From positions 1 to 33,702 of the IMG/VR virus record IMGVR_UViG_3300048556_000020: a DNA stretch of 33,702 bases. One strand, written 5' to 3'. Both the position numbers and the translations under genes were made by a program. The stretch is from a virus. A model generated the notes under the pieces. The model worked only from the letters and a program-made list of their open reading frames with translations, was not told where the DNA came from and made no database searches. Below, one piece after another: positions 21,164 through 30,525 of the stretch (position 1 is the stretch's first letter; each line of letters begins with the position of its first letter).

Positions 21164-21333
21164 GTTTAGAAGATATAAAATTGTACATATTCAATATAAT
21201 TACTTTAGGTGTTAGTTTTACTGCCGTTGAAAATAGTCTAAAAATTGTACTTCTTTTGGCTACTATCTTTTATACGTTCCAGAAGATATACGCAACCTAC
21301 AAGAGAAAGAATGAAACTGACAAAGAACTTTAA
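21160..21333 (+). CDS. Small holin-like membrane protein (57 aa)
   Basis: Two hydrophobic segments (~7-24, LYIFNIITLGVSFTAV; ~28-45, KIVLLLATIFYTFQKIY) separated by a short turn, and a charged C terminus (ATYKRKNETDKEL). This is the layout of a class II holin with both ends probably in the cytoplasm. ATG at 21160 is preferred to an upstream in-frame alternative at 21130 because it overlaps the previous stop as ATGA. Its end overlaps the start of the M15 endolysin-like gene. It probably forms the lesions that time lysis. Confidence 0.65.
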   Translation: MSLEDIKLYIFNIITLGVSFTAVENSLKIVLLLATIFYTFQKIYATYKRKNETDKEL

Positions 21334-21688
21334 GCTAAAAGAGTTTGAGTGCAAAGGTGGTGGCAAGATGCCCTTAGAGGCTTACGAGAACATCATTAAA
21401 CTTGCAGGACAACTACAATTCCTGAGAGACTACACAGGAAGAGCTATAAGAATTAATAGTGGTTTCAGGTCGGAAGCTCATAATCAAGATATAGGTGGAG
21501 TACCAAACTCACGCCATCTGCTAGGCCAAGCAGCAGACATCACAATAGACGGCCTTAATCCAGCACAGGTGTTTGCACTTATAGAAGACCTAATTGATAT
21601 GGGTCTCATGTTGCAAGGAGGTTTAGGCAACTACAAGAATTTTACACACTACGATATTAGAAAAACTAAAGCACGTTGGAATGGGTGA
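21311..21688 (+). CDS. Endolysin-like peptidase of family M15 (125 aa)
   Basis: A compact M15/VanY-type D-Ala-D-Ala peptidase. The SGFRSEAHN segment (~50-58) is followed by the zinc-binding SRHLLGQAAD motif (H69 and D76, spacing HxxGxAxD) and by a final HxD (H113, D115) in FTHYDIRKTKARWNG. These three zinc ligands are intact. It would cleave peptide cross-links of host peptidoglycan at the end of infection. ATG at 21311 is preferred to 21245 because the upstream extension would overlap the holin-like gene heavily. No signal peptide is seen, so export would depend on the holin. Confidence 0.85.
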   Translation: MKLTKNFKLKEFECKGGGKMPLEAYENIIKLAGQLQFLRDYTGRAIRINSGFRSEAHNQDIGGVPNSRHLLGQAADITIDGLNPAQVFALIEDLIDMGLMLQGGLGNYKNFTHYDIRKTKARWNG

Positions 21689-22157
21689 TTATAAGAAAAA
21701 GAACGGAACTACAAGAGTCGGAGACGCTTTACGTTGGCTAGTAAAACAAGGCAAGGAAGTAGCACCAGAACTATTATCAATAGCTGGTGGTATAACTGGA
21801 ATAGACCAGTTAAAAGAACTTGCAAATAAGATTGACACAAATAAACAACTCAGCGAAGCTGATAAGGAATTGCTATTAGAGGAATTAAGATATGATATGA
21901 TTGAAATGCAGGAGTCAACTAAGCGTTGGGTTGCTGACATGAACTCTGATAGTTGGTTAAGCAAGAATATAAGGCCTCTAAGCCTTGGATTCTTGACTTT
22001 GACTCTATTTGTATACATAATACTAGATAGTTCATTAGAAGGCTTTAAAATAGCCTCTAATTGGATTGATTTACTATCTTCACTACTGCTTCTTGTTTAT
22101 GGAGGTTATTTTGGGGCAAGAAGTGCCGAGAAAATAACTAAGAACTGGAAGAAATAA
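21681..22157 (+). CDS. Holin-like membrane protein of the 3TM-holin type (158 aa)
   Basis: A soluble charged N-terminal half (~1-95, including IDTNKQLSEADKELLLEELR) is followed by MNSDSWLSKNIRPLSLGFLT and two hydrophobic segments (~98-116; ~128-146, WIDLLSSLLLLVYGGYFGAR). The KRWxADMxSDSWLSKNIRPL...WIDLLxSLLLxVYGxYFGxRxAEKI arrangement matches the 'Holin of 3TMs' group (PF11351) as I remember it. It overlaps the endolysin gene by 8 bases. With the 57-residue protein it gives the cassette two membrane proteins, perhaps holin plus antiholin or a second pore component. Confidence 0.75.
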   Translation: MGDYKKKNGTTRVGDALRWLVKQGKEVAPELLSIAGGITGIDQLKELANKIDTNKQLSEADKELLLEELRYDMIEMQESTKRWVADMNSDSWLSKNIRPLSLGFLTLTLFVYIILDSSLEGFKIASNWIDLLSSLLLLVYGGYFGARSAEKITKNWKK

Positions 22158-22160
22158 CTT

Positions 22161-22196
22161 GTTTAATATTCTGGGGGTTGTTTAACATAATGCCCC
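22161..22196 (+). terminator. Weak terminator-like hairpin with GTTTAAYAT elements after the lysis cassette
   Basis: GTTTAATATT (22161-22170) precedes GGGGG (22173-22177); GTTTAACATA (22180-22189) lies in the loop and CCCC (22193-22196) closes a 4-5 bp stem, followed by TGTTTT. The stem is short, but the layout copies that at 13144-13186. Confidence 0.5.
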
Positions 22197-22345
22197 TGTT
22201 TTGGCTATAGAACATAGCTATCCTGTATAGTTGGCTTTGCAAAGAGTAGAAATCGTATTTTGAAGAAAAATACTTGATTTATACGTGGGACAATTTCGCC
22301 ACTTCGGCTTTTTTGAGCCTTGTGGCTGTTTTTACAAAGTTTAAG
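22197..22345 (-). ncRNA. Candidate leftward structured RNA from the lysis/early junction
   Basis: A well-formed Bacteroidota-type promoter (22346-22376, minus strand) fires into this gene-free stretch, where no frame beyond 25 codons is open on that strand. The region carries hairpins 22298-22326 (GCCAC/GTGGC plus GGCT/AGCC), 22255-22273 (GTATTTT/AAAATAC), palindrome CTTTGCAAAG (22235-22244) and 22204-22218 (GCTAT/ATAGC). Longer transcripts would be antisense to the holin gene. The first hairpin is followed on the plus strand by TGTTTTT, so it may instead be a plus-strand terminator. The RNA itself is inferred. Confidence 0.35.
22298..22333 (+). terminator. Hairpin plus T tract, possible terminator of rightward late transcription
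   Basis: GCCAC (22298-22302) pairs with GTGGC (22322-22326), and inside it GGCT (22306-22309) pairs with AGCC (22316-22319), leaving a small internal loop. TGTTTTT follows. This is a better terminator than the one at 22173. Confidence 0.5.
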
Positions 22346-22376
22346 CAAAGGTAGCGTTTTTTCCGCAAAAAGTCAA
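22346..22376 (-). promoter_or_regulatory. Leftward Bacteroidota-type promoter
   Basis: On the minus strand: CTTG, 20 bases, TACCTTTG. TAnnTTTG as the -7 box and TTG about 20 bases upstream match the Bacteroidota sigma consensus. It is the only good minus-strand promoter noticed and points away from all early genes, toward the lysis cassette. Confidence 0.55.
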
Positions 22377-22431
22377 GTTAAGTTACTAACAATGTTAATA
22401 ACTATCCCTTTTTTATATACCTATTATTTAT

Positions 22432-22439
22432 TATATTTG
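22432..22439 (+). promoter_or_regulatory. Promoter -7 box TATATTTG before the degenerate M15 gene
   Basis: Matches TAnnTTTG; the start codon at 22447 is only 7 bases downstream, implying a very short or absent leader. No clear TTTG lies at the -33 position. Confidence 0.4.
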
Positions 22440-22446
22440 TAGTGTT

Positions 22447-22872
22447 ATGTCATTATTACATCGCCCACAATATGAAATAGGTTACAGTGAAGAGGATGAT
22501 AAAGAGGGATTAAGGAAGTTGCTTTGGTCTCAGTTTATGTGTAAGTGTGGGCGTTGTAGTATTAAGACAGGAAAGAACTTTATGGAAAGGTTGCCTGTTT
22601 TTATATTAGATGAGATAGCACAGGAGGAGAGAATGAGGTTTGATATTAGATTAGCATATACTTGCAAGCATCACTCTGACAAAATAGCATTGATAAGTAA
22701 GAATCCACATAGAGTTGGATTAGCAGTAAAGATTAGAATAATTAATAATATGAAAAGATTAAAGTTAGTTCGAGGTTTAATAATGCGAGGAGTCACTAGG
22801 ATTAGATTGTGTGACGAGTTCGTTTACTTTGATACTGACGACCTCAAACCAATGTCATTGCATATCAAGTAA
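22447..22872 (+). CDS. M15 peptidase-like protein lacking its zinc ligands (141 aa)
   Basis: The layout is that of a VanY/M15A-like domain: a CKCGRC start (~32-37), an amphipathic helix, the region equivalent to SGYRCxxHN (here LAYTCKHHS, ~69-77), then HRVGLAVKI (~88-96) and FVYFDTD (~125-131). In active members the last two read HxxGxAxD and HxD. Here the Asp is Lys95 and the His is Tyr127, and the Arg of SGYR is Thr72, so hydrolysis is unlikely. The gene has its own promoter-like -7 box and a strong terminator, so it may be expressed alone and early. It could be a peptidoglycan or peptide-binding decoy or a regulator. An intact M15 enzyme is encoded 1.1 kb upstream. Confidence 0.65.
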   Translation: MSLLHRPQYEIGYSEEDDKEGLRKLLWSQFMCKCGRCSIKTGKNFMERLPVFILDEIAQEERMRFDIRLAYTCKHHSDKIALISKNPHRVGLAVKIRIINNMKRLKLVRGLIMRGVTRIRLCDEFVYFDTDDLKPMSLHIK

Positions 22873-25833: not shown

Positions 25834-26219
25834 TTACGCCTATGTACATTGATTTAGAAAGAAAAACTAAAAAGGACAGAAGAGTCTATGTCAATATGAA
25901 CTCTTATGGAAATGTAAATCACTTTATAAACAACCAAGTGAAGAAGAAGTTTAAGGACATAGTATCAAGCCAGTTAGTCGGAGTTAAGATACCGACACCT
26001 GTAGAGATATTCTATCAGGTATTCAAGCCGAGCAAAAGGAGGCTTGACAAGATGAATGTCATAGCTGTAACGTCTAAGTATTTGCTTGACGCAATAACAG
26101 AGACAGGCTGCTGGGAAGATGACAATGACGATTATGTAAAGACAGAAACAATACTGCCTACAGTTTACGACAAAGGTAATGGCAGAGTTGAGATTTTAAT
26201 TAGAACTATAGATGATTAA
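25806..26219 (+). CDS. RusA-like Holliday junction resolvase (137 aa)
   Basis: RusA-type pattern: a central beta region with VEIFYQVFKPSKRRLDKMNV (~63-82; the Asp of RRLD is a candidate metal ligand), a helix KYLLDAITETG (~89-99), and an acidic WEDDNDDYVKTETI (~101-114) containing further likely metal-binding Asp residues. RusA dimers cut four-way DNA junctions symmetrically, freeing concatemers for packaging. It starts inside the end of the ATPase gene, so translation is probably coupled; a later Met (~residue 14) is an alternative start. The next gene starts 8 bases before its end. Confidence 0.75.
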   Translation: MATKNEYRIVTPMYIDLERKTKKDRRVYVNMNSYGNVNHFINNQVKKKFKDIVSSQLVGVKIPTPVEIFYQVFKPSKRRLDKMNVIAVTSKYLLDAITETGCWEDDNDDYVKTETILPTVYDKGNGRVEILIRTIDD

Positions 26220-26778
26220 TAAGCAATTAGAGAAACTTGCATCCAAGCACAAGACTTGGGTTGGGTTGGTTAAGAGTATGGGTTGCAACTCCTCTTATGT
26301 AGAAGATGTTGTTCAGGACGCTTATATCAGGGTTTATGAATACCTAAACAAAGGAGTTGATATATCTTACGGAGATGATGATGTGAATGATTTTTATATG
26401 TACATGACCTTAAGAAGCATATATCTTAACAAAGCAAAGAAAAAAAGCATAGCCAATGAAACTGTTGATATGCAACAGGAGGCTCTGGAGTTTACGCTAA
26501 ACAACCTAAGAGAAGAGTTTGCAGATGTTGAAGAGGAGCAGGGTTTCAAAAGATTAATGAATAAGATATTTACAGAAGTCAATAGCTGGGATTTCTATTC
26601 TAAAAACATATTCATAGCTTACTTTACTACAGGATTGTCTCTGGATAAGCTATCCAATGAGACAGGCATAGGAAGAAGCAGTCTTTATAACTCAATAAGG
26701 AGATATAGAGAAGTGATAAGAGAAAGTTTCTCAGAGGATGCTGAGGACTATTATAACGGAGATTACGATAAAATTTAA
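26212..26778 (+). CDS. Sigma-70-family-like transcription factor (188 aa)
   Basis: Residues ~28-45 (SSYVEDVVQDAYIRVYEYL) look like sigma region 2 (EDxVQxxxxRxY), and ~134-172 (IAYFTTGLSLDKLSNETGIG, RSSLYNSIRRYREVIRE) like a region 4 helix-turn-helix. An acidic linker (~100-112) separates them, as in ECF-type sigma factors. It could recruit host RNA polymerase to late promoters; the TTGTTATAATA element before several late genes is a candidate target. It lies in the early operon, the expected place for a middle-to-late switch. It could also be a non-sigma HTH protein, since region 2 is only partly convincing. Confidence 0.7.
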   Translation: MINKQLEKLASKHKTWVGLVKSMGCNSSYVEDVVQDAYIRVYEYLNKGVDISYGDDDVNDFYMYMTLRSIYLNKAKKKSIANETVDMQQEALEFTLNNLREEFADVEEEQGFKRLMNKIFTEVNSWDFYSKNIFIAYFTTGLSLDKLSNETGIGRSSLYNSIRRYREVIRESFSEDAEDYYNGDYDKI

Positions 26779-29991: not shown

Positions 29992-30525
29992 ATGACACTA
30001 CAAGATTTAACAGACAAACTTAACGAATATTATAAATTTGACATCAAGCAACGCACAAGAAAAAGAAAGTATGTTTATGCGAGAAAAGTTTACTCTGTAA
30101 TAGCAAGAGAAATGGGATATACTTTTGAGAAAATAGGAGCTCACATAGGATTAAAACACGATGCTGTTTTATATCACTGTAGAAGTATTTATTCTGTTGA
30201 AATAAAGGACAAGGTTATATTCAACAGGGTTATTAAGGATTTTTCGCTTCCTATAAAAGAGATTGATTTAGACACAAAAAAAGCTATAATGCAGGCTGAA
30301 GAAGAGTCAAAGGCTATAGACAACGTAAGCTATATTAGTCAAAAATTGATAGACAGTATTACAGGCATTGTTAAGGACTGGGATATTGAGTCAATAAATG
30401 ATTTTATAAATACAAGACTTGAGCCCTATGATAAGATGATGCAAGCTAAAACACTAAGAGCTGCCCCAGTAAGGGTAGAGCCTGCTGTAATGAGAAGAGC
30501 AGTATCTAATCCGTTTTTAAAATAG
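29992..30525 (+). CDS. DnaA domain IV-like DNA-binding protein (177 aa)
   Basis: Residues ~18-70 (FDIKQRTRKRKYVYARKVYS, then REMGYTFEKIGAHIGLKHDA, VLYHCRSI) match the DnaA C-terminal duplex-binding helix-turn-helix: RxR...ARxVYxxIA, GxTFxxIGxxIGxxHxxVxYxCR. The rest is a helical domain without an ATPase. It may bind an origin or regulate transcription. Short DnaA-like HTH proteins of this kind recur in Bacteroidetes phages. Start ATG at 29992 follows an A-rich leader. Confidence 0.75.
   Translation: MTLQDLTDKLNEYYKFDIKQRTRKRKYVYARKVYSVIAREMGYTFEKIGAHIGLKHDAVLYHCRSIYSVEIKDKVIFNRVIKDFSLPIKEIDLDTKKAIMQAEEESKAIDNVSYISQKLIDSITGIVKDWDIESINDFINTRLEPYDKMMQAKTLRAAPVRVEPAVMRRAVSNPFLK

Follow-up and report, generated by a model that had tools for sequence, protein, structure and literature searches.

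A leftward promoter lies behind the lysis genes of a phage whose main genes are rightward. What could be its role? The window analysed here is a whole 33.7-kb virus record, IMGVR_UViG_3300048556_000020 (positions 1 to 33,702). The junction that contains the promoter has an M15 endolysin/holin pair on one side and the first gene of a putative early region on the other (Table 1). An earlier note on the window proposed that the promoter drives a structured RNA antisense to the lysis genes, which would keep lysis off until late in infection. To judge from the sequences of relatives, some phages of marine Bacteroidota carry a leftward stretch without protein behind the lysis genes, with a putative promoter and a 14-nt box kept even in distant relatives. 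Gene finders pass over elements of this kind.

Table 1. Features at the junction behind the lysis genes (positions in the window)
Feature	Position	Strand	Remarks
Endolysin, M15 peptidase	21314..21688	+	phrog_894; PF08291, E 7.1e-19
Holin-like gene, last of the lysis cassette	21681..22157	+	phrog_3427 holin, E 1.6e-24; Pfam holin match under cut-off
Putative late (lysis) operon terminator, GGGG..CCCC then TGTTTT	22173..22202 (hairpin 22173-22196)	+	absent from the earlier note
Small hairpin GCTAT-GTTCT-ATAGC, overlaps the 3' half of the box	22204..22218	-	from sequence
Conserved 3' box ACAGGATAGCTATG, 14 nt	22226-22213	-	kept in relatives; absent from the earlier note
Putative noncoding RNA core, ~129 nt	22213..22341	-	predicted start to box end
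Hairpin 2, AAATC-AA-GTATTT..AAATAC-GATTT, two-base bulge	22250..22280 (core dyad 22255-22273)	-	group A
Hairpin 1, GCCAC-AA-GGCT-loop-AGCC-GAA-GTGGC	22298..22326	-	pairs kept in groups A and B
Leftward promoter CTTG-N20-TACCTTTG, host sigma-A type	22346..22377	-	sequence and conservation
Operator-like palindrome TAACAATGTTA between two divergent promoters	22387..22397	.	putative function
-7 box TATATTTG of rightward early promoter	22432..22439	+	predicted start 22444, ATG 22447; poor -33
First gene right of the junction, remote M15-peptidase-like	22447..22872	+	31% to annotated peptidase M15 of Rheinheimera phages

The leftward promoter and its surroundings

On the minus strand, CTTG (22377-22374) is followed by a 20-nt spacer (22373-22354) and TACCTTTG (22353-22346), as the earlier note had described. 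TAnnTTTG is given as the -7 box of sigma-A in Flavobacterium psychrophilum, at -12 to -5 (PMC9723704). Based on this placement, the leftward transcript is predicted to start near 22341. Over both strands of the window, TTG-N19-21-TAnnTTTG has three matches against a mean of 2.72 in shuffles, and 95 of 200 shuffles reach three. The narrower form TTGAC-N18-TA[AC]CTTTG, which was chosen after the site had been seen, occurs once in the window and in none of the 200 shuffles. The site had been ranked among the best Bacteroidota-type promoters. By pattern alone it is at chance level for the composition of the window; it is credible because it is conserved across relatives, not because the pattern is rare.

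The spacer is exactly 20 nt in 23 of the 26 copies listed (18–22 nt were allowed), and 19 or 22 nt in the remaining three, which belong to group E (Table 2). Its letters vary, and the promoters of the window's copy (WIN) and L006 are identical at 20 of 31 positions. A further copy beyond the 26, L057 of group D, combines a -7 box with the 3' box, without TTG at 20 nt. The statement that no leftward gene follows holds: a 47-aa TTG frame at 22348-22205 begins inside the -7 box.

The product of the first gene to the right has no match in Pfam or PHROGs. Calling this gene early is a guess, since its product is itself remotely similar to M15 peptidases. At the position matching the rightward early promoter of the window, L008 has TTG-N20-TATATTCG. 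Palindromes between divergent promoters are seen elsewhere as well: TAACAnTGTTA in group A, a similar one in group B, and TGACAnnnTGTCA in group E (L066-L078). These operator-like sequences suggest a shared regulator.

Copies in other phages

Relatives of the proteins encoded on either side of the junction led to 80, 15 and 80 loci, and pattern scans added more. The promoter and the box were listed together in 28 rows including the window, from which L096 and L104 were dropped as chance. At least 26 distinct copies including the window, many of them near-identical, are present in metagenomic phage contigs and fall into about eight groups. Their bodies are 58–179 nt long and wholly different between groups; the promoter, the box and the place are constant. 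The antisense strand behind the holin of L350 has the same type of promoter, then 4.4 copies of a 16-nt unit (TAGAGTCAAGCTTCTT) other than that of group F, and no box.

Table 2. Groups of copies
Group	Copies	Character of the body	Length
A	WIN, L002, L005, L006, L008, L009, L040, L090	two hairpins	117-127 nt
B	L091-L093	hairpin 1 only	62 nt
C	L094, L095, L356	box within one hairpin arm	58-61 nt
D	L057		
E	part of L066-L078	TAGAAGT repeats by eye; none by TRF for L068	149-154 nt
F	L258, L297	16-nt unit, 3.9 copies (TRF, L258)	178-179 nt
G	L355		91 nt
H	L349	diverged box	116 nt

Most holin relatives are without the element. In the first scan, 71 of 80 loci had enough flank; by pattern, 15 of them have the promoter and the box, 3 have the promoter only, and 53 have neither. 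Three of the 53 (L057, L070 and L071) do bear the box with another spacer or -33, which brings the count to 18 of 71. Among the best 80 of more than 593 holin relatives in the second scan, the element is seen in L349, L355 and L356. The promoter-start pattern picked up 27 viral loci. Eight of these contain the box (L431, L443, L445, L449, L100, L101, L193 and L203); the other 19 have no box, and many of them look coding by eye. In genome contigs, 15 matches to a 17-base version of the box were seen; none has the layout of the element, and three have TAnnTTYG within 300 nt. Only chance-level matches were seen in INPHARED phages. In L304 and L311, from a GC-richer phage, the promoter and the exact box stand directly before an ORF (MLKKIGGK...); these were treated as chance and are not counted.

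All 16 tabulated copies lie behind the lysis cassette. The distance to the last plus-strand gene is 6–128 nt in 14 of them, and L095 and L356 are 219 nt from the holin. The last cassette gene is mostly a holin relative; a different 133-aa protein takes this place in L090-L092, and an extra gene follows the holin in L094. The first early gene, in the copies where it could be read, is M15-like, another ORF or, by eye, RusA-like (L057) or HNH-like (groups E and F). Such a constant place with changing neighbours fits a boundary element, and also a link with lysis. The conserved parts, which are the promoter, the hairpins and the box, all end before the holin.

The hairpin at 22173-22196 can be assigned to the plus strand as a terminator, because its T-tract is on the plus side and the G·U pairs of the group E terminator exist only there, being A·C mismatches on the minus strand (by eye). 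A plus-strand terminator is located 24–31 nt from the box in 9 of the 16 copies: WIN, L005, L006 and L008 in group A, L066, L068 and L072 in group E, and L258 and L297 in group F. None is near the box in groups B, C, G and H and in L090 (7 of 16 copies). In group D none was found by a stem rule that also missed the group E terminators. The earlier note had named, as a case against its reading, a promoter lost in relatives with the hairpins kept as plus-strand terminators. The outcome is mixed: the promoter is kept, and this hairpin does belong to a plus-strand terminator. On the minus strand, only two of the 16 copies (L008 and L349) have a terminator-like site between the box and the holin, as does L040; further ones lie inside the holin gene. 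At several loci with a holin relative but no element, a rightward -7 box follows the holin at once and no hairpin is obvious (by eye).

Two copies of GTTTAAYAT(A) lie around the late terminator (22161-22190, +), and other copies of groups A and B have similar pairs (by eye). The motif resembles one arm of a Xer/dif site.

The RNA body and the 3' box

The four dyads described by the earlier note (22298-22326, 22255-22273, 22235-22244 and 22204-22218) are all present, and the one at 22235-22244 is a palindrome. Across relatives, where the note proposed to look for covariation, pairs changed on both sides are seen in both main hairpins. Hairpin 1 is paired in 63 of 63 cells over seven sequences of groups A and B, and two of its nine pairs are changed on both sides; one of these two double changes is G-U in the MAFFT alignment and A-U if the insertions of group B are aligned by structure. 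Hairpin 2 is found in all seven aligned group A sequences with one pair changed on both sides, and was not seen in group B. The small hairpin is kept with a G-U pair in L008, and is absent in L090 and outside group A.

Against shuffles, the body of the window folds with a z of -3.8 on the minus strand and -2.1 on the plus strand. The minus-strand z is -2.8 to -3.8 in group A, about -1.9 in group B, -1.5 in group H, and -0.4 to +1.2 in groups C, E, F and G; the body and the box of L068 were taken one base off in this test and in the box-pairing test, because its promoter is one base shorter. Since the plus strand of group A also folds well (z -1.4 to -3.7), the folding energy does not settle the strand.

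In five pairs among WIN, L005, L006 and L008, the bodies are 79–88% identical, compared with 67–70% at the third positions of conserved holin codons. Identity in the same pairs is 60–73% over the 45 nt that precede the promoter and 65–90% over the promoter with its spacer. For the near-identical pair of WIN and L005, the values are 95% in the body and 97% at the holin third positions. The body of group A is folded, is more conserved than synonymous sites and shows compensatory pair changes. As for the structured leftward RNA proposed earlier, conservation backs the promoter and the untranslated body; the structure is found only in some of the groups.

The box is the other conserved part. Of 24 records picked because they bear the element, 22 have one match each to ACAGGRTARSTRTG within 1 mismatch. 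The two group C records, whose box is AAAGGGTAGCTATA, have none. A 23rd match, in the record of L010, lies outside any element, and the box read backwards has no match in all 26 records. Outside group C and the diverged group H, the boxes differ little from ACAGGATAGCTATG.

No pairing between the box and the body is evident over the 16 copies (mean z 0.03), and a TGTCC-GGATA(box) pairing drawn by RNAalifold in group A is not backed by this test. None of the 26 phage records contains a complement of the box when 1 mismatch is allowed. The 13-nt complement is present in 4 of 149 Flavobacteriaceae genomes, and two 23S rRNA loci contain nothing under 3 mismatches. The window encodes a protein with a DnaA C-terminal (DNA-binding) domain at 29992-30525 (+, E 2.8e-8). 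Among 31 phage records, 20 have this domain at E<=1, five of them over the cut-off. It was considered as a partner of the box and rejected: it is seen in records both with and without the element.

Possible roles of the leftward unit

Taken together, the sequences show a conserved promoter, a conserved box and no conserved ORF, placed behind the lysis cassette and facing a plus-strand terminator. Our preferred reading, which is tentative and ahead by a thin margin, is a short unit transcribed leftward, toward the late operon and without protein product, whose role would be that of a boundary by pausing or collision. Transcription would start at the host-type promoter and meet the end of the late/lysis operon from the opposite direction. 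The conserved part of the unit ends in the box just before the late operon terminator. Leftward polymerases may slow or pause at the box, and the paused polymerase and the terminator hairpin together could act as a convergent (collision) terminator, which would stop late transcription from entering the early region. In Escherichia coli, "sequence-specific pausing" is described as positioning the head-on collisions that terminate convergent transcription (PMC13082048, a preprint). Such a terminator would need two active convergent units, a hairpin between them, and termination that depends on the opposing polymerase. The putative opposed promoter is conserved, the late operon is predicted to be convergent with it, and a plus-strand hairpin with a T-tract is present in the nine copies listed above and in none of groups B, C, G and H by the same rule. 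The constancy of promoter, box and place beside variable flanking genes and wholly different bodies also argues for a boundary, and so do the loci without the element that have a rightward -7 box and no obvious hairpin behind the holin.

A loose pause consensus is given as G-10, Y-1 G+1 (PMC12288461). In a chosen register, the box variants match it as quoted there, including that of L090 with C at -1; some register would match by chance about 1 time in 3 (an estimate), and groups C and H carry A at +1. The fit of the box to the pause consensus is suggestive only. Against the boundary reading, the 14 conserved letters are more than a pause alone needs, and collision does not require a conserved and folded body as in group A. 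Besides, no plus-strand terminator was found near the box in 7 of the 16 copies, L350 is without the box, and group D is without TTG at 20 nt.

The body of group A is better explained by a trans-acting small phage RNA, whose body and box would bind a protein or RNA of the host or the phage, for example as an early decoy. This is almost as likely as the boundary role, which makes it possible though doubtful. It agrees with the conservation beyond synonymous sites and the folding in group A, and with the hairpin 1 pairs of groups A and B, all kept with compensatory changes. The 16-nt repeats of group F and L350 (TRF) and the similarly spaced ones of group E (by eye) also look like repeated binding sites. 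On the other side, Rfam has no match, the bodies of groups C, E, F and G fold no better than shuffled sequences do, the box is without pairing to the body, and the complement searches in phage records, Flavobacteriaceae genomes and 23S rRNA loci gave no target. The same repeats could be iterons of a DNA element, such as a replication origin or an operator, which the transcript would activate or of which it would be a by-product. The palindromes between the divergent promoters and the DnaA-type protein of the window are in line with such an element, which we regard as improbable all the same: there is no turn in GC skew, groups A–C have no such repeats, and the DnaA C-terminal domain was not found in the 33.9-kb record of L003 (group A) or in a 36-kb group E record.

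Antisense control, in which the leftward transcript reads into the holin and endolysin genes and keeps lysis low until late, appears unlikely, if slightly less so than a DNA element. The constant place behind the lysis cassette agrees with it, the late terminator is specific to the plus strand, and the scarcity of minus-strand terminator-like sites before the holin (2 of 16 copies) would permit readthrough. Since every conserved feature stops outside the lysis genes, such control is conceivable and unsupported; the last cassette gene is not constant, and the box is left unexplained. The suggestion of the earlier note that an antisense RNA could keep lysis off is not supported. Least probable is a leader of a short leftward peptide, with the box read as AGGA plus an ATG or GTG start. 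Most copies of groups A, B, E and G do have ATG or GTG at the box end, and a 25-codon frame follows the box in the window (by eye). However, the frames (MFYR*, MLKKKS*, MFKKKESD* and others, by eye) are not conserved, changes in the A-run shift them in group E, and L090 and groups C and H have no start codon at the box end.

It can be speculated, with considerable doubt, that these copies represent an undescribed family of phage noncoding units at the end of the lysis cassette, in which interchangeable bodies, made of hairpins, of 16-nt repeats or of neither, lie between one promoter and the 14-nt 3' box as a frame for a pausing boundary or for decoy RNAs that change fast. If the unit is a boundary device, phages with all genes on one strand would block transcription from late to early genes by an opposing promoter without product. 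If it is a trans-acting RNA, phages of marine Bacteroidota would have a new family of small RNAs, whose candidate active site is clear.

Rfam 15 has no match in the window, apart from one unrelated sub-threshold match within 22100-22500, and no such element is described among the literature matches listed. The element would work like a small productless convergent transcript, and is not assigned to a known family. The known example of such a transcript is the OOP RNA of phage lambda: short and untranslated, it reads leftward at the boundary of an operon, converges with the rightward transcription of the phage, and overlaps the end of cII. The likeness is in the productless convergent transcript; OOP overlaps a neighbouring gene, whereas the conserved part here does not. 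The ops element of RfaH is a pause-type element downstream of a promoter with a similar GG..TAGC..TG look, but the letters align only with a shift. Pfam gave no NusG-like match in 20 proteins of the window. Type III antitoxin RNAs are built of repeats in tandem, each about 36 nt long, next to the gene of a ToxN-type toxin; TRF gives 16-nt repeats in L258 and L350 and none in the window or L068, and on the repeats this type was rejected. So was 6S RNA, which is a long end-to-end helix with a central bubble: there is no Rfam match, and the consensus fold of group A is mainly of separate hairpins. The bidirectional terminators of E. coli consist of two convergent units with a hairpin between them, and pausing is said to set the meeting point (PMC13082048, as quoted above). 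In contrast, one partner here would be without gene product, and the arrangement is predicted from sequence.

The nearest isolated relatives found are the Nonlabens phages P12024S/L (Inhavirus), the sole INPHARED relatives of a 730-aa protein of the window (29% identity). They share the M15 peptidase followed by the holin. No box within 1 mismatch is present in P12024S, and behind the holin of these phages a plus-strand hairpin is seen by eye, without leftward promoter or box. One protein of P12024S is annotated with a sigma-70 region 2 domain. In the window, a weak match to sigma-70 region 2 (E 0.005, below the cut-off) at 26212-26778 (+) might represent a phage sigma factor.
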